A stretch of DNA of 64,000 nucleotides from Paracoccus zhejiangensis (GTDB lineage: Bacteria; Pseudomonadota; Alphaproteobacteria; Rhodobacterales; Rhodobacteraceae). The notes beneath the pieces were generated by a model. It had not been told where the DNA came from, did not search any database, and saw only the letters and a program-made list of their open reading frames with translations. Made by a program: the position numbers and the translations under genes. Positions 35,545-50,189 of the stretch are shown one piece after another. Location of the stretch: assembly GCF_002847445.1 (NCBI RefSeq), contig NZ_CP025430.1, positions 3,592,501 through 3,656,500 on the forward strand, read 5' to 3'. Numbering within the stretch: position 1 is the first letter of the stretch; each line of letters begins with the position of its first letter.

Positions 35545-36363
35545 TCACTGTTTCGGCGCGTTCGGGAAGAACAGCTGCTGATCGTTGATCTTGTAGCCCG
35601 CGATCGCGGCTTGACCCTCGGTCGAGGCCAGCCAGTCGGCAAAGGCCTGCGCCTCGGCGGTCTTGACCGACGGGCATTTCGCCGGATTGACCGGGATCAC
35701 GCCATACTGGTTGTAAAGATCCTGATCGCCCTCAACGAGAATTTCGTAGTCCTGTTTGTTCTCGAAGCTGATCCAGGTGGCACGGTCGGTCAGCACATAG
35801 GCACCCATGCCAAGCCCTGTGTTCAGCGTCGCCCCCATGCCCGAGCCGGTTTCTCGATACCATTCGCCCGAGGCGGCCTTGGGATCGGCACCGGATTCCG
35901 ACCAGAGCTGCACTTCCTTCTGATGGGTGCCGGAATCATCGCCGCGCGAGGCGAAGGGCGCCTTGGTCTCGGCGATCTTGGCCAGGGCCGGCTGCACGTC
36001 ATTCATGCCCTTGATGCCAGCCGGATCGGCGGGCGGGCCGACGATGATGAAGTCGTTATACATCAGGTCGGTGCGCGTGGTGCCGAAGCCGTCGGCCACG
36101 AACTTCTCTTCCGCCGGCTTGGCATGGACCAGCAGCACGTCGCCATCGCAATTCTCGGCATTCTTGATCGCCTGCCCGGTGCCGACCGCCACGACATTGA
36201 CGGTGATGCCGCTTTCTGCGGTGAAGATCGGCAACAGGTAGTCGTAAAGCCCCGAATTTGCCGTCGATGTGGTCGATTGCACGAGGATCGATTGCTCCTG
36301 TGCAAGTGCGGGCGTGGCGAGGCCAAGGGCCAGCAGGGCAATCCTCACGGTCTTTGCGGTCAT
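35545..36363 (-). CDS. tupA: Tungstate ABC transporter substrate-binding protein
   Basis: A 272-residue periplasmic protein with a signal peptide (MTAKTVRIALLALGLATPAL) and the tungstate signature VQSTTSTANSGLYDYLLP near the mature N-terminus, which separates TupA from ModA and WtpA. SRGDDSGTHQKE and NTGLGMGAYVLTDRATW are also conserved. It binds the oxyanion for the TupBC transporter. It follows tupC by 26 bp. Tungsten use would fit enzymes such as tungsten formate dehydrogenases elsewhere in the genome; the Mo enzyme at 2278-5612 is a possible but unproven link. Confidence 0.93.
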   Translation of the reverse strand: MTAKTVRIALLALGLATPALAQEQSILVQSTTSTANSGLYDYLLPIFTAESGITVNVVAVGTGQAIKNAENCDGDVLLVHAKPAEEKFVADGFGTTRTDLMYNDFIIVGPPADPAGIKGMNDVQPALAKIAETKAPFASRGDDSGTHQKEVQLWSESGADPKAASGEWYRETGSGMGATLNTGLGMGAYVLTDRATWISFENKQDYEILVEGDQDLYNQYGVIPVNPAKCPSVKTAEAQAFADWLASTEGQAAIAGYKINDQQLFFPNAPKQ

Positions 36364-36389
36364 GAAAACACTCTCCGTTGCGATAGGGG

Positions 36390-37160
36390 TCAGAGCACCA
36401 GGTTGCCCTGCAGGAAATCCCGCGCGGCCTCGGTATCGGGTCGGGCGAAGAAGTCCGGGGCCGCGCGGTGCTCGGCGATGCGACCGCGATGCAGGAAGAC
36501 GACATCATCGGCCATGCGCTTGGCCTGACCGACATCGTGGGTAACGAGGATGACCCGGATGCCGCTGCTGCGCGCCTCGGTCATGATCGTCTCGATGGCC
36601 AGCGTCGAGGCGGGATCAAGGCTGGCGGTCGGTTCGTCCATCAAGAGCACATCGGGATCGGTGGCCAGCGCCCGCGCCATGCCCAGCCGCTGTGCCTCGC
36701 CCCCCGACAATTGCCGCGCCGGCTGATCAGACTTGTGCCGCAGCCCGACATGGTCCAGCAGTGCATCGCCCCGCCCGCGATCCTTGCCGCGCGCTTGCAG
36801 GACGAAATCCAGATTTGCCGCGACCGAGCGGCGCAGCAGCATCGGTTTCTGGAAGACGAGCGACTGCCGGGCCGTCACCTCGGCAGGCGGCAGCGCGCCC
36901 CAGCGGATCTGGCCCGATGTCGGCAGGATCAACCCGTGCAGCAGCTTCAGGAGCAGGCTTTTCCCCGTGCCATTCGGCCCCATGATGACGGTGCAACCGC
37001 GTGTGCCGAGATCCAGATCCAGCGCGTCGAGGATGGTCTGCCCGGCCAGTTGCAGGGTCACGCCGCGCAGGCTCAGGGGCAAAACCGGGGCGCGCGCGGG
37101 CTGCGCCACCGCCGGGATGTCGCGGCCGCGAAGAACCGTCCTGTCGGCCAGATCAGACAT
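36390..37160 (-). CDS. tupC: Tungstate ABC transporter ATP-binding protein
   Basis: A 256-residue ATPase: Walker A GPNGTGKSLLLKLL, signature LSGGEAQRLGMARALA, Walker B VLLMDEPTASLDP and switch region VTHDVGQAKRMADDV. The N-terminal ~25 residues precede the domain. Its start overlaps tupB by 8 bp. Lacks the C-terminal MOP/TOBE domain of ModC, as usual for TupC. Confidence 0.92.
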   Translation of the reverse strand: MSDLADRTVLRGRDIPAVAQPARAPVLPLSLRGVTLQLAGQTILDALDLDLGTRGCTVIMGPNGTGKSLLLKLLHGLILPTSGQIRWGALPPAEVTARQSLVFQKPMLLRRSVAANLDFVLQARGKDRGRGDALLDHVGLRHKSDQPARQLSGGEAQRLGMARALATDPDVLLMDEPTASLDPASTLAIETIMTEARSSGIRVILVTHDVGQAKRMADDVVFLHRGRIAEHRAAPDFFARPDTEAARDFLQGNLVL

Positions 37161-37893
37161 AGGCCTGCCTCACAGCCGTCAGCCGTACCGATTGCACCGC
37201 CGCATTCACCCCCAGCGCCAGCACCAAGAGGATGATGCCCAACGCCAATGCCAGCGGCAGATCACCCTTGGAGGTTTCCAGCGCGATGGCCGTGGTCATC
37301 ACCCGGGTCAGGTGATCGATATTGCCGCCGACGATCATCACCGCGCCGACCTCGGCCACGGCGCGGCCGAAGCCTGCCAACCCCACGGTCAGAAGCGAAT
37401 AGCGCGCATCCCAGATCAGCGCCCGCATGGTCTGACCCCGGCTGAGGCAGAGCGAGCGAAACTGTTCGTCATATTCGACATGCAGATCCTCGATCACTTG
37501 CCGCGACAGCGCAGCGACGATCGGGGTGATCAGGATGGTTTGTGCCATAATCATCGCTGCCGGTGTATAAAGCAGCCCCAGGAACCCCAGCGGACCCGAG
37601 CGCGACAGGTAGAGATAGACCAGAAGGCCAATGACCACAGGCGGCAGGCCCATCAGCGCATTCATCAGGATCAGCACCGCCTCGCGGCCGCGAAAGCGCA
37701 GCGTCGCAACGATGGCACCGAGGGGCAGGCCGATCAGGCAGGCGAGAGCGGTCGCGGTCAGGCTGACCTGCAGCGACAGGGCGACGATCTCGACCAACGC
37801 CGCATCGCCTGTCAGGACCAGCTGCCAGGCCAGTCCGAATGCCTCACCGATGCCTTGCAAATTCTCCACCCAACGGGAAATTGTGCTGACCAT
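37153..37893 (-). CDS. tupB: Tungstate ABC transporter permease
   Basis: A 246-residue inner-membrane permease with five to six helices and the EAA-like segment GFGRAVAEVGAVMIVGGNIDH. Family length for TupB. It is the first gene of the minus-strand tupBCA-regulator operon. Upstream is a 117-bp gap to the divergent trmO gene containing a small palindrome (37979-37992). Confidence 0.92.
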   Translation of the reverse strand: MVSTISRWVENLQGIGEAFGLAWQLVLTGDAALVEIVALSLQVSLTATALACLIGLPLGAIVATLRFRGREAVLILMNALMGLPPVVIGLLVYLYLSRSGPLGFLGLLYTPAAMIMAQTILITPIVAALSRQVIEDLHVEYDEQFRSLCLSRGQTMRALIWDARYSLLTVGLAGFGRAVAEVGAVMIVGGNIDHLTRVMTTAIALETSKGDLPLALALGIILLVLALGVNAAVQSVRLTAVRQAYV

Positions 37894-37978
37894 GACGGTA
37901 GCGCGTGAAAGCAGGACAATTCAAGTCTGGAAAAGGGGAACGACTCGGGCGAAAAAGAGGATGTGCCGGGCGCAGACC

Positions 37979-37992
37979 TGCATGGATATGCA
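37979..37992. promoter_or_regulatory. Small palindrome between tupB and trmO
   Basis: TGCAT-GGAT-ATGCA lies 86 bp upstream of tupB and 19 bp upstream of the trmO GTG. Position suits an operator for the linked HTH regulator, but it is short and no second copy was found. Confidence 0.3.
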
Positions 37993-38010
37993 AAATTTAC
38001 GGGGTGCGCG

Positions 38011-38493
38011 GTGAGTGATCAGAAACCAGCCAGGGCCAATGAGGCGGTGGTTGATCTGCGTCCGGCCACCGATGCGCAATTGCGCTTCATTGGCGTGATC
38101 CGCACGCCATGGGTCACGCGCGACCTTTGCCCGCGTCAGGGAGCCGAGGACGGGCCGGAATGTCGGCTGGTGCTGGACCCGGTCTGGCAGCCGGCGCTGG
38201 CGGGGCTCGAGGATTACGAGCGGATCGAGGTGCTCTATTGGCTCGACCGCAGCCGTCGTGATCTGGTCACGCAAAGCCCCAAGGGCGATGGCAAGACGCT
38301 CGGCACCTTTGCCCTGCGCTCGCCGGTGCGGCCGAACCCCATCGGCACCTCGGTCGTGCGTCTGGTCGGGATCGAGGGCGCCGAGGTGATTGTGCGCGGG
38401 CTCGATTGCCTTGACGGCACCCCGCTTCTGGACATCAAGCCCGAGCGCGGCAGCTTTACCCCCAAGGCGCCGCCGAAGCCCGGTGTGGCCTGA
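38011..38493 (+). CDS. trmO: tRNA (N6-threonylcarbamoyladenosine-37) N6-methyltransferase
   Basis: A 160-residue protein of the TsaA/TrmO (YaeB) beta-barrel methyltransferase family, which adds a methyl group to t6A37 in tRNA-Thr. FIGVIRTPW, CPRQGAEDGPECRLVLDPVWQ, FALRSPVRPNPIGTSVVRL and LDCLDGTPLLDIKPE are the conserved blocks. Start is GTG 38011; a GTG at 37963 would extend it through a non-conserved stretch. It is divergent from the tungstate operon; TsaA-like genes recur near Mo/W genes in other bacteria, so a different role is possible. Confidence 0.85.
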   Translation: MSDQKPARANEAVVDLRPATDAQLRFIGVIRTPWVTRDLCPRQGAEDGPECRLVLDPVWQPALAGLEDYERIEVLYWLDRSRRDLVTQSPKGDGKTLGTFALRSPVRPNPIGTSVVRLVGIEGAEVIVRGLDCLDGTPLLDIKPERGSFTPKAPPKPGVA

Positions 38494-38502
38494 CCGCGCG
38501 GG

Positions 38503-39135
38503 TCAGTCCGGCATCGGGATCGGCCCGACATCCTTCGGCACCTGATAGCCCCGCTGCACCGTCGGGCGCTCGGCCAGCGCGCGATACCAGCGCAGGACGT
38601 TGGGGAAATCGCGCAGATCGACCTGGTGCCAGTCATGCCGCGCGACCCAGGGAAAGATCGCCATGTCGGCGATGGAGTAGTCGCCGGCGACGAATTCCCC
38701 CTCTGCAAGCTGCCGGTCCAGCACGCCGTAAAGCCGCCGCGCTTCCTTGCGGAAGCGATCTTCGGCGGCGGGGGCCAGACCCGGGTTGTTCTTCAGATAG
38801 ACATGCGCCTGACCCAGCATCGGGCCAAAGCCGCCCATCTGCCACATCAGCCATTGCAGCACATCGGCCCGCGGTTTCGGCTCGGTCGGCAGAAACCGCC
38901 CGGCGCGTTCGGCCAGATGGATCAGGATCGCGCCCGATTCAAACACCGGGAAACCCGCGTCATGGTCAAAGATCGCCGGGATCTTGTTGTTGGGCGAGAT
39001 CTTCAGGAAGGCCGGATCGAACTGTTCATCCTTGCCGATATCGACCGCATGGACGGTGTAGGGCTGGCCCAGTTCTTCCAGCAGGATCGAGATCTTGCGG
39101 CCATTGGGCGTGCTCCAGGTATAGAGGTCGATCAT
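38503..39135 (-). CDS. Glutathione S-transferase, nu-class-like (YfcG type)
   Basis: A 210-residue GST. N-terminal LYTWSTPNGRKISILLEELG has the Thr-Pro-Asn motif of nu-class (YfcG/YghU) disulfide-bond reductases, followed by ISPNNKIPAI and FESGAILIHLAE. It is the last gene of a three-gene minus-strand operon with a ThDP enzyme and an FAD dehydrogenase; its ATG overlaps the dehydrogenase stop by 4 bp. This link suggests handling of a reactive product such as an aldehyde or glutathione adduct, which is inference. Confidence 0.87.
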   Translation of the reverse strand: MIDLYTWSTPNGRKISILLEELGQPYTVHAVDIGKDEQFDPAFLKISPNNKIPAIFDHDAGFPVFESGAILIHLAERAGRFLPTEPKPRADVLQWLMWQMGGFGPMLGQAHVYLKNNPGLAPAAEDRFRKEARRLYGVLDRQLAEGEFVAGDYSIADMAIFPWVARHDWHQVDLRDFPNVLRWYRALAERPTVQRGYQVPKDVGPIPMPD

Positions 39136-40556
39136 CTTGTGCCTTCCGTCGCTGGGGCAAGCACCTTGCCCGGATTCATCAGGTTCTGCGGATCGATGGC
39201 GGATTTGAGGCTGGCCATCAGCGCCAGCGCCACCGGATCCTTGTAGCGCGGCAGCTCGTCGCGCTTGGCCAGACCGATGCCATGCTCGGCCGAGATCGAG
39301 CCGCCCATCGAGGCCACCAGATCATGCACGATGCGGTTGAACCGGGGATAATGCGACAGGAACTCGGCATCACTCATGTCCACCGGCCGGGTCAGGTTGA
39401 AATGGATATTGCCGTCGCCGAAATGGCCGAAGGGGCAGGGGCGGACCGGCGGCATATAGTCGCGGCAGAGGCCGACGCCGGTGGTGATGAACTCGGCCAC
39501 ACGGGCGACCGGCACCGCCACGTCATGCTTGATCGAAGCGCCGTAATGCTTCTGCATCTCGGACATGTTCTCGCGCAGCGACCACAGCGCGGCATTCTGT
39601 GCCTCGGACCTGCCGATGACGGCATCTGCGACCAGCCCGGATTCGATCGCCTCGGCCAACGCGTTTTCCATCCGCGCCTCGAGATCGGCATCGGGATCGG
39701 GCGAGCTGAGTTCGATCAGGCAATAGGCCGGGTGCGCCTCCGTCATCGGGTCGCGCGCGCCGGGCAGATGGGCCAGCACCATCTCGACCCCGAAGCGTTC
39801 GAGATATTCAAAAGCCGTCAGGCTGTCCCCGGCACGCGCCCGCAGGATGTCAAAGATCGCCAGCGCGGCTTCCGGCCCGGCGCAGCCGGCAAAGGCCGTG
39901 ACCTTGGTGGCGGGTTTCGGGAACAGCTTCAGGACGGCCGTGGTGATGATCCCCAGCGTGCCCTCGGCCCCGATGAACAGGTCGCGCAGGTCATAGCCGG
40001 TATTGTCCTTCCTCAGTGCCGACAGCTCGTTCAGGATGCGGCCATCGGGCAGAACCACCTCGACCCCGAGGCAAAGCTCGCGGGTATTGCCGTAGTGCAA
40101 GACGCCGGTACCGCCGGCATTGGTCGAGAGATTGCCGCCGATCTGGCAGGTGCCTTCCGAGGCCAGCGACAGCGGGAACAGCCGCCCGGCTTCCGCCGCT
40201 GCTTCCTGCACCGAGGCGAGCGTGCATCCGGACTCTACCGTGATGGTGGCGTTCAGCGGATCGACCGAGCGGATGCGGTTCATTCGCCCGGTGGTGATGA
40301 CCACGCCGCCCCGCGGCACGCCGCCGCCGACCAGTCCGGTATTGCCCCCTTGCGGCACCATCGCCACGCCGGCCTCGGCGCAGGCGCGGACACAGGCGGC
40401 AACCTCTTCGGTCGAGCCGGGATGAACCACCGCGATCGCCTCGCCGGTCCAACGGCGGCGATCCTCGCGGAGGTGCGGGGCGATCTGGTCAGGGTCGGTC
40501 CAGACATGCCGCTCGCCCACGGCGGCGCGCAGGGCGGCGATCAGCGCCGCACTCAT
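39132..40556 (-). CDS. FAD-linked D-2-hydroxyacid dehydrogenase (D2HGDH/DLD type)
   Basis: A 474-residue VAO/GlcD-family flavoprotein. The FAD-binding half has PQGGNTGLVGGGVPRGG and GTCQIGGNLSTNAGGTGVLHYGNT; the C-terminal substrate half has the metal-site motifs FGHFGDGNIHFN and SAEHGIGLAKRDELP. This architecture oxidises D-2-hydroxyacids (D-lactate, D-2-hydroxyglutarate and similar) to 2-oxoacids. It overlaps the ThDP enzyme gene by 4 bp upstream and the GST by 4 bp downstream. In this locus it probably oxidises the D-isomer made by the LarA-like racemase. Confidence 0.88.
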   Translation of the reverse strand: MSAALIAALRAAVGERHVWTDPDQIAPHLREDRRRWTGEAIAVVHPGSTEEVAACVRACAEAGVAMVPQGGNTGLVGGGVPRGGVVITTGRMNRIRSVDPLNATITVESGCTLASVQEAAAEAGRLFPLSLASEGTCQIGGNLSTNAGGTGVLHYGNTRELCLGVEVVLPDGRILNELSALRKDNTGYDLRDLFIGAEGTLGIITTAVLKLFPKPATKVTAFAGCAGPEAALAIFDILRARAGDSLTAFEYLERFGVEMVLAHLPGARDPMTEAHPAYCLIELSSPDPDADLEARMENALAEAIESGLVADAVIGRSEAQNAALWSLRENMSEMQKHYGASIKHDVAVPVARVAEFITTGVGLCRDYMPPVRPCPFGHFGDGNIHFNLTRPVDMSDAEFLSHYPRFNRIVHDLVASMGGSISAEHGIGLAKRDELPRYKDPVALALMASLKSAIDPQNLMNPGKVLAPATEGTR

Positions 40557-42244
40557 CCCCGGGCCTCCGCCTGCTCGCGCAGCCGCGTGATGGTGGTGCG
40601 GCTCGAGATCTGTTCGGGATCGGTCACCAGTTCGATCACCGCCGGCTTGCCCGAGGCACGGGCGCGGGCCAGCGCCGGGGCGAAGTCTTCGGTGCGGGTG
40701 ACGCGCTCGGCATGGCAGCCCAGCCCCTCGGCCATCTTGCCGAAATCATGCCCGGCCATGGTCGTGCCCGAGACGCGGCGCGGATGCTCGCGCTCCTGAT
40801 GCATGCGGATGGTGCCGTAGATGCCGTTGTTGAACAGCAGAACGATGGGCGTCGCGCCATATTGGGCGGCGGTCGCCAGTTCCATGCCGCTCATCATGAA
40901 GCCGCCATCGCCGACCATCGCCAGCACAAGGCTCTCGGGCCGGGTCAGCGCCGCCGCCACCGCCGCCGGCACCGCATAGCCCATCGAGCCGCAGGTCGAG
41001 CCGACCTCGCGCCCCGGCCGGCCAAAGCGCAGGTAGCGCTGCCCCCAGCCGGTATGGTTGCCGGCATCCAGCGTCACGATCAGGTCGGCGGGCAACTCGT
41101 CGCGGATGGCGCAGAAGGCCTTGCCCATGTCCAGCTGCCACTGATTGTCACCCGGCGGTTCGGTGTCGGCGATATATTCGTCGCGCAGGGTCTTGGCCCA
41201 ATCGGCCCAATCCGCCCGCCGCCCCAGATTGCGCCCGGCCAGCCCGGCGACGACGCCCGGCATGTCGGCGGCAATCCCCAGATCGGGGCCATAGACCCGA
41301 CCGATCTCGTCGGCATCCTGATGCACATGGATCAGGCGCTGGCGCGATTGCGGCGGCGTCAGCGTGGTATAGCCACGCGTGGTCATCTCCCCCAGCCGCG
41401 CGCCGAGGACCAGAAGCAGATCAGCCTCGGCGATGCGTTTGACGATGGTCGGGCTGACGGCGGTGCCGAACTCGCCGACATAGGCCGAAGAATGGTTGTC
41501 GATGGCGTCCTGACGGCGGAACGAGGTGCAGACGGGCAGGGCGTTCGCCTCGGCAAAGGTCTGGATGTCCAATGCCGCTTGCTCGGTCCACCCCGATCCG
41601 CCCAGCATCACCAGGGGCCGCTTTGCCGTCGACAGCAAGGCGCAGATGCGGTCGATGTTCCCCGCATTCACTTCGGCGCGGGTCGGCAGGTAGGGCTCGG
41701 CATCGGCGACCGTCACGGTCTCGGTCAGCATGTCCTCGGGCAAGGCCAGCACCACCGGGCCGGGGCGACCCGAGGTGGCCATGCGGAAGGCGCGGGCCAT
41801 GTATTCCGGCACCCGCTCGGCGCAGTCGATCTGCGCCACCCATTTCGCCAGCCCGCCGAACATCTGGCGGTAATCGACCTCCTGAAACGCCTCGCGGTCC
41901 ATCATGTCGCGGCCAACCTGCCCGATCAGCAGGATCATTGGCGTGCTGTCCTGCTGCGCGATATGGACGCCGATGGCGGCATGGCAGGCACCGGGGCCAC
42001 GCGTCACCATGCAGATGCCGGGCTTGCCGGTCAGCTTGCCATAGGCCTCGGCCATATCCGCCGCGCCAGCCTCGTGCCTTGCATTGTAGAGGGTAAAGCG
42101 GTCGGACACGTCATGCAGCGCGTCCAGCACCTCGAGATAGCTTTCGCCCGGCACGCAGAAGGCGCGGTCGGCGCCGTGGATCAGCAATTGATCGACCAGA
42201 ACCTGACCCGCCGTGCGGGGCTTCAATTGGCTGCCATCGGGCAT
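40553..42244 (-). CDS. Thiamine diphosphate-dependent enzyme (acetolactate synthase-like)
   Basis: A 563-residue three-domain ThDP enzyme. The cofactor-activating Glu is in ARHEAGAADMAEAYGK, and the ThDP/Mg motif GDGGFMMSGMEL ... NNGIYG lies in the C-terminal domain. The middle domain (LVMLGGSGW onward) is of the acetolactate-synthase/benzoylformate-decarboxylase superfamily. There is no regulatory subunit gene, so a biosynthetic acetolactate synthase is unlikely. As first gene of an operon with a 2-hydroxyacid dehydrogenase it may decarboxylate or cleave the resulting 2-oxoacid. GAAGGAG precedes the ATG at 42244. Confidence 0.85.
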   Translation of the reverse strand: MPDGSQLKPRTAGQVLVDQLLIHGADRAFCVPGESYLEVLDALHDVSDRFTLYNARHEAGAADMAEAYGKLTGKPGICMVTRGPGACHAAIGVHIAQQDSTPMILLIGQVGRDMMDREAFQEVDYRQMFGGLAKWVAQIDCAERVPEYMARAFRMATSGRPGPVVLALPEDMLTETVTVADAEPYLPTRAEVNAGNIDRICALLSTAKRPLVMLGGSGWTEQAALDIQTFAEANALPVCTSFRRQDAIDNHSSAYVGEFGTAVSPTIVKRIAEADLLLVLGARLGEMTTRGYTTLTPPQSRQRLIHVHQDADEIGRVYGPDLGIAADMPGVVAGLAGRNLGRRADWADWAKTLRDEYIADTEPPGDNQWQLDMGKAFCAIRDELPADLIVTLDAGNHTGWGQRYLRFGRPGREVGSTCGSMGYAVPAAVAAALTRPESLVLAMVGDGGFMMSGMELATAAQYGATPIVLLFNNGIYGTIRMHQEREHPRRVSGTTMAGHDFGKMAEGLGCHAERVTRTEDFAPALARARASGKPAVIELVTDPEQISSRTTITRLREQAEARG

Positions 42245-42293
42245 CGCGCGACTCCTTCAAGACTGCCCCTGTCTTGTCCCATGCTGGACAGGG

Positions 42294-42312
42294 TTGTCAA
42301 CGAAGCTTACAA
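42294..42312. promoter_or_regulatory. Predicted GntR-family operator 1
   Basis: TTGTCAACGAAGCTTACAA matches the site at 46169-46187 at 14 of 16 arm positions with the same 3-bp spacer. It lies between the divergent ThDP operon and the GntR gene, 40 bp upstream of the regulator ATG, and overlaps a minus-strand TTGACA. A perfect GCTTAC-AA-GTAAGC palindrome (42305-42318) overlaps its right half. Confidence 0.6.
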
Positions 42313-42351
42313 GTAAGCCATGCCCCTCTGGTCGGATTTCAGGACACTGGC

Positions 42352-43092
42352 ATGAACGACGCGCCGGCGAGCCAAGACCCGCTGCTGATCCAGCCGATCC
42401 GCAAGCGCGAGACGCTGGCCGACCAGATCTATGGCCGGGTGCTGGAGCTGATCGCCGCTGGCCAGATCGCCGAGGGCGCCAAGCTGCCCTCGGAACATCA
42501 GATCAGCGAGCGGTTTTCGGTCTCGCGCCCGGTCGTGCGCGAGGCACTGGCGCGTCTGCGCGACGACGGAATCATTGTGGCGCGCCACGGCATCGGCAGC
42601 TTCGTGCGCCGCCGCCCGCCACAGGGGCTGATCGACTATGCCGGGGCCGATGATGTGGCCGGGCTGATGCGCTGCATGGAGGCGCGGCTGGCGGTCGAGC
42701 CCGCCGCCGCTCGCCTTGCCGCGCTGCGCGCCGCGCCCGATGACCTGTCCCGGATCGACTCGGCGCTGGCGGAACTCGAGCAAGTAATGCGCAGCCGCGA
42801 GCCGGTGATCGAGCTGGATTTCGCCTTTCACATGGCCGTCGCCCGCGCCAGCGGCAACGAGATCTTTGCGCGGATGCTGGACACCACGCGCGCGCAGATG
42901 CAGGCCGCGATCGGCGTGGCGCAAAGCCTGACGCGCATCGGCACCGACCAGCGGATCGAGGCGGTCATCACCGAGCACCGCCAGATCGCCGAGGCGATCC
43001 GCGCCCGCGACGGCGAGGGCGCGGCGCTGCTCATGAGCTATCACCTGACGCAGGCGCGCCAGCGGGTGACGGATCAGCGGCGCAGGGTCTAG
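42352..43092 (+). CDS. GntR-family (FadR/FCD-type) regulator
   Basis: A 246-residue regulator. The winged-helix domain spans about residues 15-85 (LADQIYGRVLELIAAGQIAE ... LPSEHQISERFSVSRPVVRE), and the C-terminal all-helical FCD ligand domain includes ARLAVEPAAARLAAL, LDFAFHMAVARASGN and ITEHRQIAEAIRARD (metal-binding Asp/His positions). FCD regulators commonly sense small carboxylic acids. The ATG at 42352 follows AGGA. It stands between the ThDP operon and the TRAP transporter genes, and matching palindromes lie at both, so it probably controls both. Confidence 0.9.
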   Translation: MNDAPASQDPLLIQPIRKRETLADQIYGRVLELIAAGQIAEGAKLPSEHQISERFSVSRPVVREALARLRDDGIIVARHGIGSFVRRRPPQGLIDYAGADDVAGLMRCMEARLAVEPAAARLAALRAAPDDLSRIDSALAELEQVMRSREPVIELDFAFHMAVARASGNEIFARMLDTTRAQMQAAIGVAQSLTRIGTDQRIEAVITEHRQIAEAIRARDGEGAALLMSYHLTQARQRVTDQRRRV

Positions 43093-43098
43093 TCGGGG

Positions 43099-45006
43099 TC
43101 AGTTCTCGCCGGTCTTCAGGTCGCTCATCTTCACATGCGTCTCGCCTTCCAGATCGGCCTCGGCAGTGTGTTCCGGGTCCGGTTCACGCCGGTTCAGAAG
43201 CGCACCCAGCAACCCCAGCCCCAGCCCGATGGCATCGGTCATCAGCCCCGGCTTGATCAGCGTGAAGGCGGCGGCGATCAGCAGGATGCGGACCAGCCAG
43301 CCCGCCGGGCGGAACAGATAGCCGGCCAGCCCCGCCGAGAGAAAGGTCACGCCAAGCGTCGCGGTGATGACCGTCAGCACCACCTTGGGCCATTCCCCGA
43401 TGAGCAGCAGAGAGGGGCCGAAGACGAACATGAAGGGGATGATATATCCCGTCAGCCCCAGCCGCACCGCGGTCATCGAGGTGCTGACCACCGGAGATCG
43501 CCCGATGCCGCAGGCGGCATAGACGGCGATGGCGACCGGGGGTGTGATGGCCGAGAGGATGGCGAAATAGAAGACGAACATATGCGCCGCCGGGATCGAG
43601 ACGCCCAGCTTGACCAGCGCCGGCACCAGAAGCGCCACCTGCACGATATAGGCGGGCGTCGTCGGCATCCCCATGCCCAGCACGATCCCCGCCATCATCG
43701 TCAGGATCAGCGCCGGCAGCAGCATGTCCTGCGCTGCTGCCCTGACCAGCCCGGTGAAGGTCAGTCCCAGCCCGGTCTGCGCGATGACGCCAATGACGAT
43801 GCCCGCCGTGGCGCAAGCCAGCGCCACCACCACCGAATTGACCGCGCCCGATTGCAGCGCCTCGATCAGTTTCGGGATGCTGAACTCTTTCCGCGTGGTC
43901 TTGCGCAGAAGCACCACCGGCACGATCGACAGGATCCCCGCAAGAGCCGAGAAGGGCGCGGAATAGCCCGACATCAGCGTGGCGATGATGATGACCAGCG
44001 GCAGGAACAGATGCCCCTCGTCGCGCAGCACCTTGCCCACGCGCGGCAGGTCGGCGCGGGGCAGGCCCTTCATGCCGCGCTTGCGGGCCTCGAAATGCAC
44101 CGCAAGAAAGACCGCGAGATAGTAGAGCAGCGCCGGCAGCAGCGCATAGGCGGCGACGGTCAGGTAACTGACGCCCATGAACTCGGCCATGACGAAGGCG
44201 GCGGCGCCCATGATCGGCGGCATGATCTGCCCGCCAGTCGAAGCCACCGCCTCGACCGCGCCGGCGAAATGGGCCGGATAGCCGATGCGCTTCATCAGCG
44301 GGATGGTGAAGGTTCCGGTGGTCATCACATTGGCGACGGCCGAACCCGAGACCGAGCCGAAAAGCCCAGATGTGACGACGGCGACCTTGGCCGGCCCGCC
44401 CGCGGTATGGCCGGTCAGCGCAAGGGCGAAATCCATGAACAGCTTGCCGATGCCGAACCGCTCGGCCATCGCCCCGAAGATCACGAACAGCACCACATAG
44501 GTGGCCGAGACCTGCGCCGGCACGCCGAAGAGGGCATCGGTGGTCATGTATTGATATTCCAGAAGCCGCGTCAGGTCGGCCCCGGTGAAGAAGATCTGGT
44601 AGCCGAGAAAGACCAGCGCAGTGATCGGCAGGATCGGCCCGACGGCGCGGCGCGTGGCCTCGAGCACGGTGACGATCATGATCGTCGCCATCACCTGATC
44701 CATGACCGAGACCGGCCCGACATAGGCCATGCGGGTGTTGAAATAGGTCTGGTTGACGATCGGATAGGCCGAGGCCGCCAGCGCCGCCGCCATCAGGATC
44801 AGGTCCATGATCCCCGGCGATTTCTCGGCTCGCGAAGGCGTGAAGGGTAGCGTCAGGTAGGCCAGCACCAGCGCGAAGCCGAAATGCGTGGCGCGCAGGG
44901 TAAAGGCATTGGGCGGCCCGAACCACGCCACATAGAGGTGAAAGAGGCTCATGGTCACGGCGACAAGCGTCACCACGCGCCGCATCCAGATCGAGTTTGC
45001 CAGCAT
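43099..45006 (-). CDS. TRAP transporter permease, fused 4TM-12TM type
   Basis: A 635-residue membrane protein with about 17 hydrophobic segments. The N-terminal part corresponds to a DctQ-like small subunit fused to a DctM-like large subunit, including GLFGSVSGSAVANVMTTGTFTIP, VASTGGQIMPPIMGAAAFVMAEF and MAGIVLGMGMPTTPAYIVQ. This fusion normally pairs with TAXI-type binding proteins, and one is encoded just upstream (start-to-stop gap 73 bp). It is convergent with the GntR gene (6 bp). Probable substrate: a 2-hydroxy- or dicarboxylic acid, from context. Confidence 0.93.
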   Translation of the reverse strand: MLANSIWMRRVVTLVAVTMSLFHLYVAWFGPPNAFTLRATHFGFALVLAYLTLPFTPSRAEKSPGIMDLILMAAALAASAYPIVNQTYFNTRMAYVGPVSVMDQVMATIMIVTVLEATRRAVGPILPITALVFLGYQIFFTGADLTRLLEYQYMTTDALFGVPAQVSATYVVLFVIFGAMAERFGIGKLFMDFALALTGHTAGGPAKVAVVTSGLFGSVSGSAVANVMTTGTFTIPLMKRIGYPAHFAGAVEAVASTGGQIMPPIMGAAAFVMAEFMGVSYLTVAAYALLPALLYYLAVFLAVHFEARKRGMKGLPRADLPRVGKVLRDEGHLFLPLVIIIATLMSGYSAPFSALAGILSIVPVVLLRKTTRKEFSIPKLIEALQSGAVNSVVVALACATAGIVIGVIAQTGLGLTFTGLVRAAAQDMLLPALILTMMAGIVLGMGMPTTPAYIVQVALLVPALVKLGVSIPAAHMFVFYFAILSAITPPVAIAVYAACGIGRSPVVSTSMTAVRLGLTGYIIPFMFVFGPSLLLIGEWPKVVLTVITATLGVTFLSAGLAGYLFRPAGWLVRILLIAAAFTLIKPGLMTDAIGLGLGLLGALLNRREPDPEHTAEADLEGETHVKMSDLKTGEN

Positions 45007-45079
45007 ATTCGTTCCCTTCCGCGCCGCGAGGGGGCGAGGCCCGACCGGGCCCCGCCATGGGTCAACGAGGGGTCAGGGA

Positions 45080-46012
45080 TCAGCCGCCGGTATGTTCGGC
45101 ATAGAATTCCTTGGCGCCCTCATGCAGCGGCACACCGGTATCGGCCTGCATGCTTTCCAGCGTGGTGTCCTTCATCGCCGCGCTGATGGCGATCAGGTCG
45201 TCGCGCCCGTCCCACATCCGGGTCAGCAGGGTCTTCACCACTTCCTTGTCCAGATCGCAGCGCGCGATGACCTGGGTGGCATAGCCCACCGCCAGCACAT
45301 CCTCGTCCTGACCGGGATAGCTGCCGGCGGGAATGTTCAGGCTGGCATAGCCGGGATTCAGGTTGGCCTTCATGTCGTCGATGAAGCTCTGCTCCAGCGG
45401 CACCATCTTGATGGCGGTGGAATTGGCGAGGTCCATCACCGCCGAGGCCGGAACGGTGGTGCCGAGGGTGAAGTAATCGGCATTGCCATCCTGCAACAGC
45501 GCCACCCCGTCGGAATAGGAGACGTAATCGACGCTGCGCATCGCCTCGTAATCCGTACCGGCGGTTTTCAGGACGGCGCGGGTGACCTCTTCGGCGGTAT
45601 TGCCGACGGGCTGGGTGACCAGCCGCTTGCCGGCGATGTCGGCCACGGTCTGGATGCCGCTCGCCTCGGTGGCGACGATGTGGAAATATTGCGGATAGAG
45701 CGTGGCCACGTTGCAGACATTGTCGGCCTTGCCCTCGAAGGGCGGCCGCCCCTCGATCGCATCGACGACCGAGATCGAGTTGCCAAAGCCCAGGTCGGCC
45801 TGACCGCCCTGCACCCCCTGCACATTGGCGACGCCGCCGCCGGGCAGCACTTGGATGCCGATACCGTCATCCGAGACCATCGACTGCATCGCCCCGCCGA
45901 GCGGATACCAGGACCCGCCCTGCGGCCCGGTCATCAGTTTCAATTGCTGGGCCTCGGCCATGCCGCCGGTCGCGGCAAAGGCGATAAATCCGGTTGCGAT
46001 CAATATGCGCAT
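45080..46012 (-). CDS. TAXI-family TRAP transporter solute-binding protein
   Basis: A 310-residue periplasmic protein. Signal peptide MRILIATGFIAFAATGGMAEA, then LKLMTGPQGGSWYPLGGAM, the TAXI family N-terminus, and GGVANVQGVQGGQADLGFGNS. GGGAGGATAGA precedes the ATG at 46012; a longer frame has no signal. First gene of the transporter operon, with the palindrome at 46168-46188 upstream. Confidence 0.92.
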   Translation of the reverse strand: MRILIATGFIAFAATGGMAEAQQLKLMTGPQGGSWYPLGGAMQSMVSDDGIGIQVLPGGGVANVQGVQGGQADLGFGNSISVVDAIEGRPPFEGKADNVCNVATLYPQYFHIVATEASGIQTVADIAGKRLVTQPVGNTAEEVTRAVLKTAGTDYEAMRSVDYVSYSDGVALLQDGNADYFTLGTTVPASAVMDLANSTAIKMVPLEQSFIDDMKANLNPGYASLNIPAGSYPGQDEDVLAVGYATQVIARCDLDKEVVKTLLTRMWDGRDDLIAISAAMKDTTLESMQADTGVPLHEGAKEFYAEHTGG

Positions 46013-46167
46013 TCTATCCTCCCTGTCATATGCTCTTGAAGCCCGGCCATGACTGCCCGCCGCCTTGTCTGGCGGTCGCGGCTGGCTGGGCAAGCTGGTC
46101 CTCCCCCGGCGCCTGTTGGCTCCCGAAGGAGACGCCGACCGCCAAAGGTTCAACCGAACAGCCGTCA

Positions 46168-46188
46168 CTTGTCAACTTAGTTGACAAG
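46168..46188. promoter_or_regulatory. Perfect 21-bp palindrome, predicted GntR-family operator 2
   Basis: Ten-base arms (CTTGTCAACT and AGTTGACAAG) flank a single central T. The core TTGTCAACTTAGTTGACAA (46169-46187) closely matches the site at 42294-42312. On the minus strand the right arm contains TTGACA, a likely -35 box for the TAXI-TRAP operon about 160 bp downstream, so binding would block transcription. The downstream -10 is poor. Confidence 0.7.
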
Positions 46189-46211
46189 GGGAGCGCAAAG
46201 TGGAGGCGGTT

Positions 46212-47381
46212 CTAATCGTGCGTCTCGGCCCGGCGGCGCAGGGATTGCCGGGCGGCATGGTCGCCGGCTGTGGCGAGATCGTCCATCTCGGCCTTGGTGA
46301 TCTGACCGCCAAGTGGGAGCTGCCGGGTCTTGGTGCCGATCTCGCGCCCATCAACCTGCACCGGCTGCGCTTCACGGGGAAGCAGCATCCGCCGCTCCTC
46401 CCGCAGGCGCAAGCCGATGGTGGTGGTCTCGGCGAAACAGGCCCGCGCGACCTCCTCCATCGCCGCGTGGCGGCAGATGAGTTCGATCCGGCTCATCATT
46501 CGGCCCTTCTTGCCGAAGGCCGGCAGTTGCAGCACATCCAGCACATCCTCGCGACCGCGCAGATTGGCAAGGCCGACCGCCAGATCCTCGCCGGTCTGAT
46601 CGTCGACATGAAAGCTGATGACGCCGACCCTGTCCCGATCCTCTGCTGCTTCCGCCTGCCACAACCCGACCCGCAGCAGGTTCGCAACGCCCTCCATCCG
46701 CCGCGTGCCAAGGCCATTGCCGGTCCGGCGCAGTGTCATGGTGCCAGCGGGCAGGGCGGGCGCAGGCTGCAGATGCGCCATGATCGCCGCGCCGGTCGGC
46801 GTGACCCGCTCGCCCGGAATGCCGTCATCGATCACCGGCAGGCCCTGCATCAGGATCAGCGTGGCCGGCGCCGGCACCGGCATCTGGCCATGCTCCGTCT
46901 CGACCCGCCCGCCGCCAAGCGGCAGGGCCGAGGTGCTGGCCGAACTCACCCCCAGCCGTTCGAGGCACAAGGCCGCCAGCAGCACATCGGCAATGGAATC
47001 CCAGTCCGAGATCTCGTGGAAATGCACCTGCGCCAGGGTGACCCCATGCACCGCCGCCTCGGCCTCGCCCAAGCGGCGCAAAATGTCGTCGGCCCGGCGC
47101 GCCACACCCGGATCGGGGGCCAATTCTGCCAGCAGCGCCTGGTACTCACCGTAATGGCGCGGACCCCGGCGGCTTTCCGGCAGGGTGACGGCAAGATGCC
47201 GCCCGCGCATCCCGTGATCGCGCTGTTCCACCGCATCGATGCCGACCCCCGGCCCGATCCGTGCGGCCAGCGCCTGCGCTTCGGGCAAGAGGTCCGGTGC
47301 GGCATCCAGCATCGCCGCCACGAACATGTCGCCGGCAATGCCGCCGAGCGGGTCGAGATGCAGGTGGGTGTCTTGCGGCAT
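46212..47381 (-). CDS. larC: Nickel-pincer cofactor biosynthesis protein LarC
   Basis: A 389-residue LarC, the CTP-dependent nickel insertase that puts Ni into the pincer cofactor of LarA. The N-terminus LHLDPLGGIAGDMFVAAMLD and HFHEISDWDSIADVL are characteristic, as are VTPTGAAIMAHL and the C-terminal domain with MSRIELICRH. Both LarC1 and LarC2 parts are in one uninterrupted frame, so no ribosomal frameshift of the Lactobacillus kind is needed. GAAGGAG precedes the ATG at 47381. It is divergent from larE. Confidence 0.93.
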   Translation of the reverse strand: MPQDTHLHLDPLGGIAGDMFVAAMLDAAPDLLPEAQALAARIGPGVGIDAVEQRDHGMRGRHLAVTLPESRRGPRHYGEYQALLAELAPDPGVARRADDILRRLGEAEAAVHGVTLAQVHFHEISDWDSIADVLLAALCLERLGVSSASTSALPLGGGRVETEHGQMPVPAPATLILMQGLPVIDDGIPGERVTPTGAAIMAHLQPAPALPAGTMTLRRTGNGLGTRRMEGVANLLRVGLWQAEAAEDRDRVGVISFHVDDQTGEDLAVGLANLRGREDVLDVLQLPAFGKKGRMMSRIELICRHAAMEEVARACFAETTTIGLRLREERRMLLPREAQPVQVDGREIGTKTRQLPLGGQITKAEMDDLATAGDHAARQSLRRRAETHD

Positions 47382-47483
47382 GGGCGTCTCCTTCGCCGCC
47401 CGATGATCCCCACAGGGCCGCGGATGGCAAGGGGCATGGTCACGGCGGATCGACCTGATAAGCTGCGCCCGGAAGGAGTGCCG

Positions 47484-48284
47484 ATGACCCAAGCCGACGA
47501 TCCCGCTGCGCGATTGCGCGCGATCCTGACAAGCCAGCCGGGGCTGGCGCTGGCGGTCAGCGGCGGGGTGGACAGCCTGACGCTGGCCCATGGGGTCGCG
47601 CGACTGGCGGGGCAGGTGCCGCGTGTGTTTCACGCCGTCTCGCCCGCCGTGCCCGTGGAGGCGACGGCGCGTGTCCGCCGTCATGCCGAGGCGCATGGCT
47701 GGCAGCTGACGGTGATCGAGGCGGGCGAATTCGCCGATCCCGATTACCTCAGGAATCCGGTCAATCGCTGCTATTTCTGCAAGTCGAACCTTTACGCCCG
47801 GATTGCCGGGGCCACGGATGCCACCATCGCCTCGGGCGCCAATCTGGACGATCTGGGCGATTACCGCCCCGGCCTGACGGCAGCATCCGAGCGGCAGGTG
47901 ATCCATCCTTTCGTGCTGGCCGGCATGGGCAAGGCCGAGATCCGGCGCATGGCGGCGGGCTTCGGCCTCAGCGATGTGCAGGACCTGCCGGCGCAGCCCT
48001 GCCTCGCCAGCCGGATCGAGACCGGGTTGCCGGTGCGCGCCGATGATCTGGCTTTCGTCGCGCGGGTCGAGGCCGCGCTGACCACCCTCGCCGGCCCCGG
48101 CGATCACCGCTGCCGGATCACGGCTGAGGGCGTGCGGATCGAGTTGCAGCCGGAATTGCTGCAGGACGCCGCCCTGATCGCCCGCCTGACCGCCGAGGCC
48201 ACCCGGCTCTGCGGTGCCGATCACCGCATCCTTACCACCATCGGCCCCTATCGCCGCGGATCGGCCTTCCTGCATGACCAGTGA
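47484..48284 (+). CDS. larE: ATP-dependent sulfur transferase LarE, three-cysteine type
   Basis: A 266-residue PP-loop protein that supplies sulfur for the pincer cofactor. The PP-loop SGGVDS is at about residues 26-31. Three cysteines stand out: Cys96 and Cys99 in VNRCYFCKSNLY and Cys173 in PAQPCLASRIETG. The Lactobacillus plantarum enzyme uses a single sacrificial cysteine, whereas three-cysteine LarE proteins carry a [4Fe-4S] cluster and can act catalytically; this one looks like the latter. GGAAGGAGTGCCG precedes the ATG at 47484. It overlaps larB by 11 bp. Confidence 0.93.
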   Translation: MTQADDPAARLRAILTSQPGLALAVSGGVDSLTLAHGVARLAGQVPRVFHAVSPAVPVEATARVRRHAEAHGWQLTVIEAGEFADPDYLRNPVNRCYFCKSNLYARIAGATDATIASGANLDDLGDYRPGLTAASERQVIHPFVLAGMGKAEIRRMAAGFGLSDVQDLPAQPCLASRIETGLPVRADDLAFVARVEAALTTLAGPGDHRCRITAEGVRIELQPELLQDAALIARLTAEATRLCGADHRILTTIGPYRRGSAFLHDQ

Positions 48285-48924
48285 CCCCGGCGATATCCGC
48301 TTCGACTGGCAGCGCCGCGCCCGCACCGGCATCCCCGAGGCCGTGCTGGCCGAGGGAAAGAGCCCCGATCAGCTTGCCCGCATTCTTGCGGAAGCGCGGG
48401 CGCGTCGGACCGTTCTGTTCCTGACACGGCTGCCCCCCGAGATCGCCACAGGCTTTCCCGATCTGGACTATGACCCCATCTCACGCACCGGCATCTTCGG
48501 AATACCCACCCGCCGACCCGAAACGGACGGAAAAATCGCCGTGGTCTGCGCCGGCAGCAGCGATCTGCCTGTGGCTGCCGAGGCCCGCCGCGCCTTGCAG
48601 GTCTTCGGCACCGATGCCCCGCTTTACGCCGATGTCGGCGTGGCCGGTCTCTGGCGGCTGATGGAGGTCGCCGACGAGTTGCGGCAGTTCCGCGTTCTGA
48701 TCGCCGTCGCCGGGATGGAGGGCGCGCTGTTTTCCGTCCTCGCCGGGTTGGTGCCGGGGCTGGTGATCGCCGTGCCCTCGCCGGTGGGCTATGGCGTCTC
48801 GGCGGGCGGGCAGGTGGCGCTGACTGCGGCACTGGCAAGCTGCGCCCCCGGCGTGGTCACCACCAATATCGGCAATGGCTTCGGCGCCGCAGCAGCAGCC
48901 TGGAAGGTCATCGGCGCGGGTTAG
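48274..48924 (+). CDS. larB: Pyridinium dicarboxylate synthase LarB
   Basis: A 216-residue protein related to PurE (AIR carboxylase) that carboxylates and hydrolyses nicotinic acid adenine dinucleotide, the first step of pincer cofactor synthesis. PurE-like features are IAVVCAGSSDLPVAAEARRAL, AVAGMEGALFSVLAGLVPG and VPSPVGYGVSAGG. The N-terminal segment FDWQRRARTGIPEAVLAEGKS is the LarB-specific extension. It starts inside larE and its end overlaps the convergent racemase gene by 4 bp. Confidence 0.93.
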   Translation: MTSDPGDIRFDWQRRARTGIPEAVLAEGKSPDQLARILAEARARRTVLFLTRLPPEIATGFPDLDYDPISRTGIFGIPTRRPETDGKIAVVCAGSSDLPVAAEARRALQVFGTDAPLYADVGVAGLWRLMEVADELRQFRVLIAVAGMEGALFSVLAGLVPGLVIAVPSPVGYGVSAGGQVALTAALASCAPGVVTTNIGNGFGAAAAAWKVIGAG

Positions 48925-50189
48925 GTGCGATTGCCCGCCGCATCGAAGACCGGCAATTCGGCCTCGCCCAGAATCTCGATCGCCGGATTATCGCGCGCCT
49001 CGGGCAGCAGCGCCGTCGAGATACGGATCGTTTCAAGATGTAGCGTATCCGTCAGCCAGACCATGCGCGGGGCCTCGGGGTCGGCGGCATTGCTGGTCTT
49101 CAGCGCCACCTGCAGCGCCGCCTTCTCGCTGTCCATGATGACCGGCAGGCGGGCACTGGCCAGCACGGTCGAGGTGATGCAATTGGCATAGGTGGCCGGA
49201 TAGTCGATCTTCTCGACCAGCCGCCTCGTGCAGATATCGGCCAGCCCGATGCCGGTGGCGTTGCCGCCGCTCTTGGTGCTCAGGTCCAGCACCGCCAGCT
49301 TGCCAACCGTCTGCGCGGTGCGGACATAGGGCGTGCCGGCGCGGCCGGTGATGTTCGGGTCCATGCCGGTGCCAGAGAACTCCTTGCCCATGCGGTCGAC
49401 GATCAGCACGTCCAGCGGATCGAACAGGATGCGTGGCATCCGGGCGCGGGCCATCTGCAGCAGGCCCGGCTCGCGCGAGATGATCTGCGCGCCCGGCACC
49501 AGCTCCAGATGACAGACCCGGTCATAGGCGTTTTCCACCGAGGCGATGCCGAACAGGATCGGCAGGGTGCCAAGGGTCAGCGCCGCCATGTCGCGCACAT
49601 TCTGGCCCATCAGTCCAAAGCCCATGGCATGACAGCTTTCCGCGCCCTTCTGCTTGCCGAGGCCAATGGTCACCATCTTGGCCAGCCCGCTTTCGATCTC
49701 GGCGGAAAAGCTGGTATGCGGCTTCACCCGGTTGATGACGACGATTCCGTCCGCTTGCAGCGCCAGCCGGTCCAGGTAGATCGGCAGGCCGTTCGGGAGG
49801 CTGCCGATCTGGTCGACCTCCATCGACGAGCGGATCTCGCAGCCGGCGCTGTCGGGTGTGACCCCGAGCCCGGCCAGCAACGCGCGCTGACCCTCGGCGC
49901 TGGCGCCACCATGGCTGCCCATGGCCGGCACGATGAAGGGCTCGGCCCCGGCGGCCCGGATCGCGTCGATGGTGGCGCGGACAATGATCGGCAGATCGGC
50001 AAGCCCGCGACTGCCCACACCCACCGCGACGCTCATGCCGGGCCGCAGCCCGTGCGCGCCGTCCATCCGGGCGAATTCGGCGCGGATCGCGGCGGGGATA
50101 TCGGTGATGCGGCTGTCGTCAAAGACCTGCCGCACCGGGGCCATGGCCGGAATCGCAACTTCGCCGATCAGCGTCTCGATGATACCCAT
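48921..50189 (-). CDS. LarA-family nickel-pincer 2-hydroxyacid racemase/epimerase
   Basis: A 422-residue LarA homologue (DUF2088). Probable active-site residues are His93 (AMGSHGGAS), His158 (NRVKPHTSF), Lys171 (SGLAKMVTIG) and His187 (AESCHAMGF). Lys171 and His187 are 16 residues apart, as recalled for the pincer-binding Lys184 and nickel ligand His200 of L. plantarum LarA. Surrounding sequence differs from classical lactate racemase, so another 2-hydroxyacid is likely. GGAGGGGCGAGAC precedes the ATG at 50189. It converges with larB; larB, larC and larE are adjacent and would supply the cofactor. Confidence 0.85.
   Translation of the reverse strand: MGIIETLIGEVAIPAMAPVRQVFDDSRITDIPAAIRAEFARMDGAHGLRPGMSVAVGVGSRGLADLPIIVRATIDAIRAAGAEPFIVPAMGSHGGASAEGQRALLAGLGVTPDSAGCEIRSSMEVDQIGSLPNGLPIYLDRLALQADGIVVINRVKPHTSFSAEIESGLAKMVTIGLGKQKGAESCHAMGFGLMGQNVRDMAALTLGTLPILFGIASVENAYDRVCHLELVPGAQIISREPGLLQMARARMPRILFDPLDVLIVDRMGKEFSGTGMDPNITGRAGTPYVRTAQTVGKLAVLDLSTKSGGNATGIGLADICTRRLVEKIDYPATYANCITSTVLASARLPVIMDSEKAALQVALKTSNAADPEAPRMVWLTDTLHLETIRISTALLPEARDNPAIEILGEAELPVFDAAGNRT

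Follow-up and report, generated by a model that had tools for sequence, protein, structure and literature searches.

A group-22 nickel-pincer isomerase in a conserved gene set with a transporter, a D-2-hydroxyacid dehydrogenase and a thiamine diphosphate enzyme: a candidate sugar-acid module from Paracoccus zhejiangensis

Which 2-hydroxy acid is handled by a nickel-dependent isomerase whose gene lies among those of a transporter, a stereospecific dehydrogenase and a thiamine diphosphate (ThDP) enzyme? This question is raised by a 64,000-nucleotide stretch of Paracoccus zhejiangensis DNA (contig NZ_CP025430.1, positions 3,592,501 to 3,656,500), hereafter the window, in which ten genes between positions 38503 and 50189 unite the isomerase LarA and its cofactor biosynthesis proteins with a TAXI-family TRAP (tripartite ATP-independent periplasmic) transporter, a flavin adenine dinucleotide (FAD)-linked D-2-hydroxyacid dehydrogenase, a ThDP enzyme, a glutathione S-transferase (GST) and a GntR-type regulator. 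With a probability of roughly 55%, this set would serve, as one module, the catabolism of a polyhydroxy or dicarboxylic 2-hydroxy acid of the aldonate or aldarate kind with about 3 to 6 carbons. The novelty lies in the conserved combination and in the likely class of substrates assigned to a LarA group so far uncharacterised, every part being drawn from known families; a description of this combination was not found in the literature searched, which omits most subscription journals.

All ten genes named in the initial annotation are intact, their coordinates hold, and their families were confirmed with Pfam and NCBIfam. The larA gene (48921..50189, minus strand) encodes 422 amino acids and, judged by its score against NCBIfam NF052515 (532.5 bits versus a cut-off of 400), the protein is a member of the family "nickel pincer cofactor-dependent isomerase, group 22". 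The biosynthesis genes of the cofactor all lie within the window: larE (47484..48284, plus strand; TIGR00268, 228.9 bits versus 150) overlaps larB (48274..48924, plus strand; NF033503, 225.8 bits versus 175), which converges on larA, and larC (46212..47381, minus strand) matches TIGR00299 and NF052512 (LarC1 and LarC2) above their cut-offs in addition to PF01969. Between this group and the remaining enzymes, next to larC, stand the genes of the TAXI-family solute-binding protein (45080..46012, minus strand; TIGR02122, 213 bits versus 84) and of the fused TRAP permease (43099..45006, minus strand; TIGR02123, 641 bits versus 321). The regulator gene (42352..43092, plus strand; PF00392 and PF07729 above cut-off, a GntR protein of the FCD type) is divergent from that of the ThDP enzyme (40553..42244, minus strand), which is followed by the FAD dehydrogenase gene (39132..40556, minus strand) and the GST gene (38503..39135, minus strand). 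Since the FAD gene shares 4 bp with the GST gene on one side and 4 bp with the ThDP gene on the other, these three probably form one operon.

Conservation of the set was followed through genome samples of the family, genus, class and phylum, which overlap one another: a group-22 LarA above the cut-off occurs in 11 of 394 family genomes, 9 of 125 Paracoccus genomes, 11 of 385 genomes of the class and 3 of 398 of the phylum. Besides the window, 30 distinct loci were fetched with 20 kb of surroundings, shorter at contig ends, and several of them end less than 10 kb from LarA. Gene calls in these loci were based on third-position G+C and are crude; absences were therefore judged by BLAST with the window proteins, the sole means applied to L055 to L065. 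Genes for the TAXI, TRAP and ThDP proteins stand near LarA in 11 of the 31 loci (the window, L047-L054, L066 and L043, the last with the module about 20-28 kb away from LarA), and the module also resides on plasmids of Pseudosulfitobacter sp. DSM 107133 and Sulfitobacter dubius, represented by 40-kb stretches. The FAD gene is present in 12 of 13 module loci, the exception being G403.

Within Paracoccus, a ThDP orthologue (at least 67% identity, the next value below the gap being 52%) was detected in 17 of the 125 genomes. All 9 genomes with a group-22 LarA are among these 17 and carry the ThDP gene less than 10 kb from LarA, an overlap with a hypergeometric P of 1.6e-9 when relatedness is ignored. 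Hence, the gene set, whose conservation in related genomes the initial annotation had made its own touchstone, is indeed conserved, and in view of this P value and of the recurrence with separate LarA lineages described below, the neighbourhood of LarA and the ThDP enzyme is not due to chance. The FAD orthologue (at least 64% identity) occurs in 8 of the 9 LarA genomes versus 1 of the 8 Paracoccus genomes that hold the ThDP orthologue only (Fisher P 0.003). The D-specific dehydrogenase thus accompanies the racemase, a pattern to be expected of two enzymes of which one supplies the other. LarB likewise exceeds its cut-off in 9/9 LarA genomes versus 0/8 ThDP-only genomes, its gene lying elsewhere in the genome rather than at the module in G473 and G508, and no Lar_N match was obtained in the 8 ThDP-only genomes, G487 among them being just 86% complete.

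The phylogeny of LarA adds a second line of evidence. In a tree of 42 proteins, from which L078 was omitted as a duplicate of L046, module carriers appear in three places: clade A, comprising the window and L047-L049, stands beside LarAs of operons with tripartite tricarboxylate transporter (TTT) and dehydratase genes (L037, L038 and the Loktanella locus L070); clade B unites other Paracoccus, the Sulfitobacter group and L043, the last of which was coded as module-less in this tree and revealed its module in an extended stretch; and L066, from another family of the phylum, groups with LarAs of IlvD/GMC operons. A single LarA clade for all three carriers is rejected by the approximately unbiased test (p-AU 6e-47), and one for A and B only marginally so (p-AU 0.043); these clade tests were chosen after the tree had been seen, and both the LarA and the ThDP tree carry long-branch warnings. 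Two separate LarA lineages, and perhaps a third, are thus associated with the module. On the contrary, the ThDP proteins of all three carrier groups fall into one clade of 23 members, LarA-less ones included (SH-aLRT 100, midpoint root). It follows that the same downstream module was combined on at least two occasions with different group-22 LarAs, or that LarA was exchanged in place, and either course favours a functional link and a like reaction.

Concerning the isomerase itself, at least 7,997 relatives of the window LarA exist at an E value of 1e-20 or better, a number which may include other LarA groups; among the matches listed, Paracoccus tegillarcae carries a LarA relative at 74%. Neither of the two papers on the LarA superfamily (PMC7583248, PMC11770544) uses the term "group 22" in its main text, and a literature search combining "nickel pincer" with "group 22" yielded no published activity for the group. 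Five residues, H93, H158, K171, H187 and K269, are invariant in all 43 rows of the group-22 alignment, which includes one identical pair. Through the match to a solved lactate racemase, which covers H93 and H158, and to a profile built on two other LarAs, H93 and H158 correspond to the catalytic histidines H108 and H174 of Lactiplantibacillus plantarum LarA, K171 to the cofactor-linking Lys184 and H187 to the nickel ligand His200, the spacing from lysine to histidine being 16 in both; the equation of K269 with K298 is no more than a guess. A bound nickel-pincer cofactor and isomerase activity are predicted for the protein. Directly behind the second catalytic histidine, the window LarA features the small and polar pair T159 and S160, which differs from the F-F usual in lactate racemases as well as from the Y-F usual in 2-hydroxyglutarate racemases, as given in the accessible portion of PMC11770544. 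According to the available parts of PMC7583248 and PMC11770544, malate, 2-hydroxyglutarate and gluconate racemases or epimerases belong to the same superfamily, with the same proposed hydride-transfer mechanism and with polar or acidic substrates; group 22 differs from them in its loop residues and in its great distance, to which we return below. In searches of the PDB with LarA, TAL-effector proteins provided the best rows and were discarded, being held to be repeat artefacts. The locus L132 (G057) holds a LarA of another group, which scores 358 bits against the structure of the broad-spectrum Isosphaera racemase and sits between a larC-like gene and one resembling a glycerate kinase gene, both recognised by eye.

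The top solved relatives of the dehydrogenase are 3pm9, which we take to be RPA1076, and human D-2-hydroxyglutarate dehydrogenase (D2HGDH), with both of which it shares the zinc-binding, catalytic and carboxylate-holding residues. In human D2HGDH numbering, R386, H434, H441, E475 and H476 (zinc and catalysis) and K401 and N443 (distal carboxylate) are kept in 13/13 FAD orthologues, a comparison including one protein (G487) from a LarA-less locus. In the human enzyme, K401 and N443 hold the second carboxylate, and other residues take their place in GlcD and the D-lactate dehydrogenases, yeast DLD2 and DLD3 excepted, as far as the available portion of PMC7801405 goes. The protein scores below the cut-off of the glycolate oxidase GlcD model (TIGR00387, 267 versus 568 bits). 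The ThDP enzyme falls into the PRK08199 subfamily (NF006052, 785 bits versus 539) and not among the acetolactate synthases, the best such model shown giving 324 versus 509 bits; the ARHEAG motif with the presumed catalytic glutamate and the GDG...NN motif are kept in the 21 orthologues compared. For TAXI proteins, the accessible part of PMC12344293 reports glutamate, 2-oxoglutarate and 2-hydroxyglutarate, and phthalate as ligands, a TAXI-TRAP system of Proteus mirabilis being described as specific for 2-oxoglutarate and 2-hydroxyglutarate.

The genomic surroundings of group-22 LarAs point in a similar direction. Among eight named plasmid records devoid of the module, hand-picked from the listing for variety, LarA lies beside sugar-acid genes in seven: with a galactarate/altronate-type dehydratase, IlvD and a dihydrodipicolinate synthase (DHDPS) in Loktanella, with a split galactarate-type dehydratase in Sporomusa, with glucuronate isomerase in Paenibacillus, near a four-carbon acid sugar kinase and PdxA in Rubrobacter and Haladaptatus (L077, L079), with a DUF4147 protein, presumably a glycerate kinase, in Haloarcula, and with IlvD/Edd in Roseicitreum; only the eighth, Haloferax gibbonsii, lacks a clear sugar-acid context. 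The kinase and PdxA neighbours suggest that threonate or erythronate may be epimerised in Rubrobacter and Haladaptatus. Moreover, several clade-B module copies reside inside sugar-acid islands of Rhodobacterales, which we take to be of the Weimberg type. A galactarate/altronate-type dehydratase adjoins LarA in 6/8 clade-B copies (exceptions L054 and L043), and L-arabinonate dehydratase is found in 5/8 clade-B stretches (L050/L125, L051/L126, L052/L127, L067 and L073), which also hold genes of the DHDPS family and, mostly, of an NADP-dependent aldehyde dehydrogenase. By curated cut-offs, only L-arabinonate dehydratase is firmly assigned, the galactarate-type dehydratases reaching about half of the GarD cut-off. 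The clade-A copy in the window differs from these islands in that genes for a sugar-acid dehydratase, an aldolase or a semialdehyde dehydrogenase are missing beside the module. Taken together, the LarA neighbours, the clade-B islands, the D2HGDH-type pocket and the TAXI ligands indicate polar, acidic substrates, so that a sugar acid or di-acid appears more likely than an aromatic acid resembling mandelate.

On this basis, we propose the following sequence of events. The TAXI-TRAP transporter would import the 2-hydroxy acid, while LarB, LarE and LarC would supply the nickel-pincer nucleotide to LarA. LarA would then invert the configuration at C2 by proton-coupled hydride transfer, yielding the D (2R) form from the (2S) form or epimer, and the Zn/FAD dehydrogenase would oxidise the D form to the 2-oxo acid, which the ThDP enzyme might decarboxylate, cleave or use in a carboligation. 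By way of a single operator, the FCD-GntR protein would control both the import genes and the ThDP-FAD-GST genes. Of the single pathway module first proposed, what stands is the conserved set that joins the racemase to the transporter, the D-2-hydroxyacid dehydrogenase and the ThDP enzyme, to which a presumably shared operator can be added; the parallel to mandelate degradation is not supported, and the GST is no fixed member. A wider proposition would have group-22 LarAs in general act as widespread nickel-dependent C2 epimerases of polyhydroxy mono- and di-acids (aldonates, aldarates, tetronates) that bacteria would have combined at least twice with one set of TAXI-TRAP transporter, D-2-hydroxyacid dehydrogenase and ThDP lyase; by this undescribed route, a sugar di-acid would undergo epimerisation, C2 oxidation and decarboxylation, and no dehydration. 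This is tentative, with the odds on the whole against it. Should the route proposed for the module hold, sugar-acid catabolism would gain a nickel-dependent entry that avoids dehydration, and a role would be found for the poorly known TAXI transporters. Since the module includes a transporter and a regulator of its own as well as downstream enzymes, the substrate of group 22 becomes directly testable.

A common regulation of import and catabolism is suggested by a perfect palindrome, CTTGTCAACTTAGTTGACAAG, located between larC and the TAXI-TRAP genes (46168..46188, no strand assigned), about 155 bp before the TAXI start. A second copy, TTGTCAACGAAGCTTACAAG (42293..42313, no strand assigned), differs from it by 2-3 mismatches and lies in the divergent promoter region of the ThDP and GntR genes. 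These are the only two sites with at most 3 mismatches in the 64-kb window (4 strand matches versus 0.02 expected). At up to 5 mismatches, the window contains 8 matches and five mononucleotide shuffles contain 0 to 4, and on account of this background only sites with at most 3 mismatches were used in the window. Counterparts exist at both places in all three clade-A relatives, with mismatches at the larC/TAXI and GntR/ThDP sites of 0 and 3 in L049, 3 and 2 in L048, and 4 and 4 in L047; L047 and L048 possess an extra site within the TAXI gene with 4 and 5 mismatches, respectively. In clade B, the TAXI, TRAP, ThDP and FAD genes are co-directional behind a divergent GntR gene. The palindromes presumably serve as a common operator for the import genes and the ThDP-FAD-GST genes, and the GntR protein is the candidate to bind them.

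Several observations weigh against this interpretation of the locus. Between the window LarA and the profile of two other LarAs, the match is weak, with an hhalign probability of 29% and an E value of 6e-4, which marks the group-22 protein as a remote branch of the superfamily; in this weak alignment, D72, which binds the cofactor ribose in other LarAs, pairs with V58, a position outside the conserved columns of the group-22 alignment, and the profile-profile alignment stops soon past H187, leaving the C-terminal half of LarA unalignable. In the dehydrogenase, unlike in human D2HGDH, T390 is replaced (Ser in 12/13 orthologues, Ala in 1/13) and Y432 is Phe in 13/13. The LarA genome G403 has no FAD orthologue and only a 45% relative elsewhere, and 8/17 Paracoccus genomes with the ThDP orthologue lack LarA and show mixed surroundings for it, as do more distant ThDP relatives; the ThDP enzyme is hence not tied to the racemase and appears to have a wider use. 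As to the operator, clade B holds only weaker copies before TAXI (L067 with 4 mismatches, L052 with 5), and none was found at that place in L050, L051, L053, L054 and L073. The region ahead of larA contains no copy.

Among the alternatives, the one that survives best regards the locus as a composite island, in which LarA serves a sugar-acid dehydratase route of the galactarate/altronate or L-arabinonate type, neighbouring or distant, and the FAD and ThDP enzymes take another acid from the same transporter. The clade-B islands contain both routes, the dehydratase mostly adjoining LarA as described above, and the ThDP-FAD genes lie about 8-10 kb from LarA in Paracoccus; the distance is 16-19 kb in L067 and L073 and reaches about 26-28 kb in G152. 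The four clade-A genomes retain a dehydratase homologue (48-49%) and an L-arabinonate dehydratase (78-80%), both elsewhere in the genome; in the window genome, a galactarate/altronate-type dehydratase gene adjoining a TRAP transporter and an L-arabinonate dehydratase gene both lie far from the module, and the operator, allowing up to 4 mismatches, is absent from both 20-kb stretches around them. On the other hand, LarA of clade A stays with the TAXI-TRAP-ThDP-FAD genes despite the lack of such a dehydratase at its side, and the FAD orthologue tracks LarA within Paracoccus. We grant the composite island a small, though still appreciable, chance.

A pathway for 2-hydroxyglutarate, comprising TAXI import, racemisation by LarA and oxidation to 2-oxoglutarate by the D2HGDH-like enzyme, with the ThDP enzyme acting on another compound, would agree with the D2HGDH-type pocket, with the ligands of the Proteus mirabilis transporter (available part of PMC12344293) and with the existence of 2-hydroxyglutarate racemases among LarAs in the accessible portions of PMC7583248 and PMC11770544. 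Yet 2-oxoglutarate needs no ThDP step in the operon, and the T-S pair behind the second histidine departs from the Y-F usual in those racemases according to the same part of PMC11770544, which renders this route improbable.

Less credible still is a pathway for an aromatic 2-hydroxy acid resembling mandelate, the parallel originally drawn for this locus. Mandelate degradation proceeds through a racemase, a stereospecific dehydrogenase and a ThDP decarboxylase, an order that the module shares, and benzoylformate decarboxylase and benzaldehyde lyase are among the distant relatives of the ThDP enzyme. In other respects, the parallel is not supported: the relatives of LarA lie in sugar-acid clusters, its loop residues are small and polar, the FAD enzyme keeps the lysine and asparagine for a second carboxylate, and no mandelate racemase of the enolase superfamily or FMN-dependent mandelate dehydrogenase gene was recognised among the module genes, which instead feature a nickel racemase, a FAD/Zn D-dehydrogenase with an acid pocket and TAXI-TRAP import. 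The faintest prospects are those of a 3-sulfolactate pathway with racemisation, oxidation to sulfopyruvate and ThDP-dependent decarboxylation to sulfoacetaldehyde, which fits the logic of sulfopyruvate decarboxylase routes and could invoke a carboxylate pocket taking a sulfonate, Sulfitobacter among the carriers and the membership of the sulfo-lyase SuyB in the same dehydratase family, but is opposed by the mostly sugar-acid neighbours, by a ThDP enzyme far below the cut-off for Xsc (234 versus 676 bits) and by the lack of a sulfoacetaldehyde acetyltransferase among the annotated genes of three islands, for which the PLSDB tables are incomplete and beyond which no genome was searched as a whole for sulfonate genes.

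The GST, to which the initial annotation had attributed a step in the handling of a reactive product, is better viewed as an optional member. It occurs in 5/12 module loci (the window, L047/L130, L048, L049/L129 and L067), L139 being outside this count since its stretch ends before the GST position, and on this distribution a fixed pathway enzyme was rejected. Its top solved relatives are 6tah and 4eci, followed by YfcG; this kinship to the nu class derives from the PDB sequence search alone, and the protein resembles YfcG and YghU yet remains under both equivalog cut-offs (YfcG, 193 versus 332 bits). In Sulfitobacter SK025 (L068), a GST gene lies near the ThDP gene, LarA being absent from the 17-kb stretch read; there, the two genes adjoin those of two large proteins with weak matches to Dyp peroxidases, one of which has 1620 residues and a P450 domain.

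Some further neighbours deserve mention. Next to the GST gene in the window, genes of a tungstate-type ABC transporter resembling TupA, TupB and TupC (35545-37893), whose products are all under the equivalog cut-offs, and trmO (37963-38493) were left out of the module. Near the haloarchaeal group-22 LarAs (L076, L075), genes with LUD domains of the lactate-utilisation type are present. A gene for a HupE/UreJ-family protein, presumably a nickel permease, adjoins larC in L052 and L053 and lies about 5 kb from it in L066, the Pfam identification referring to the L052 copy only; its position is in keeping with a nickel demand. Finally, urease genes, belonging to another nickel user, are located a few genes from the module in the Sulfitobacter plasmids (L069, L073).

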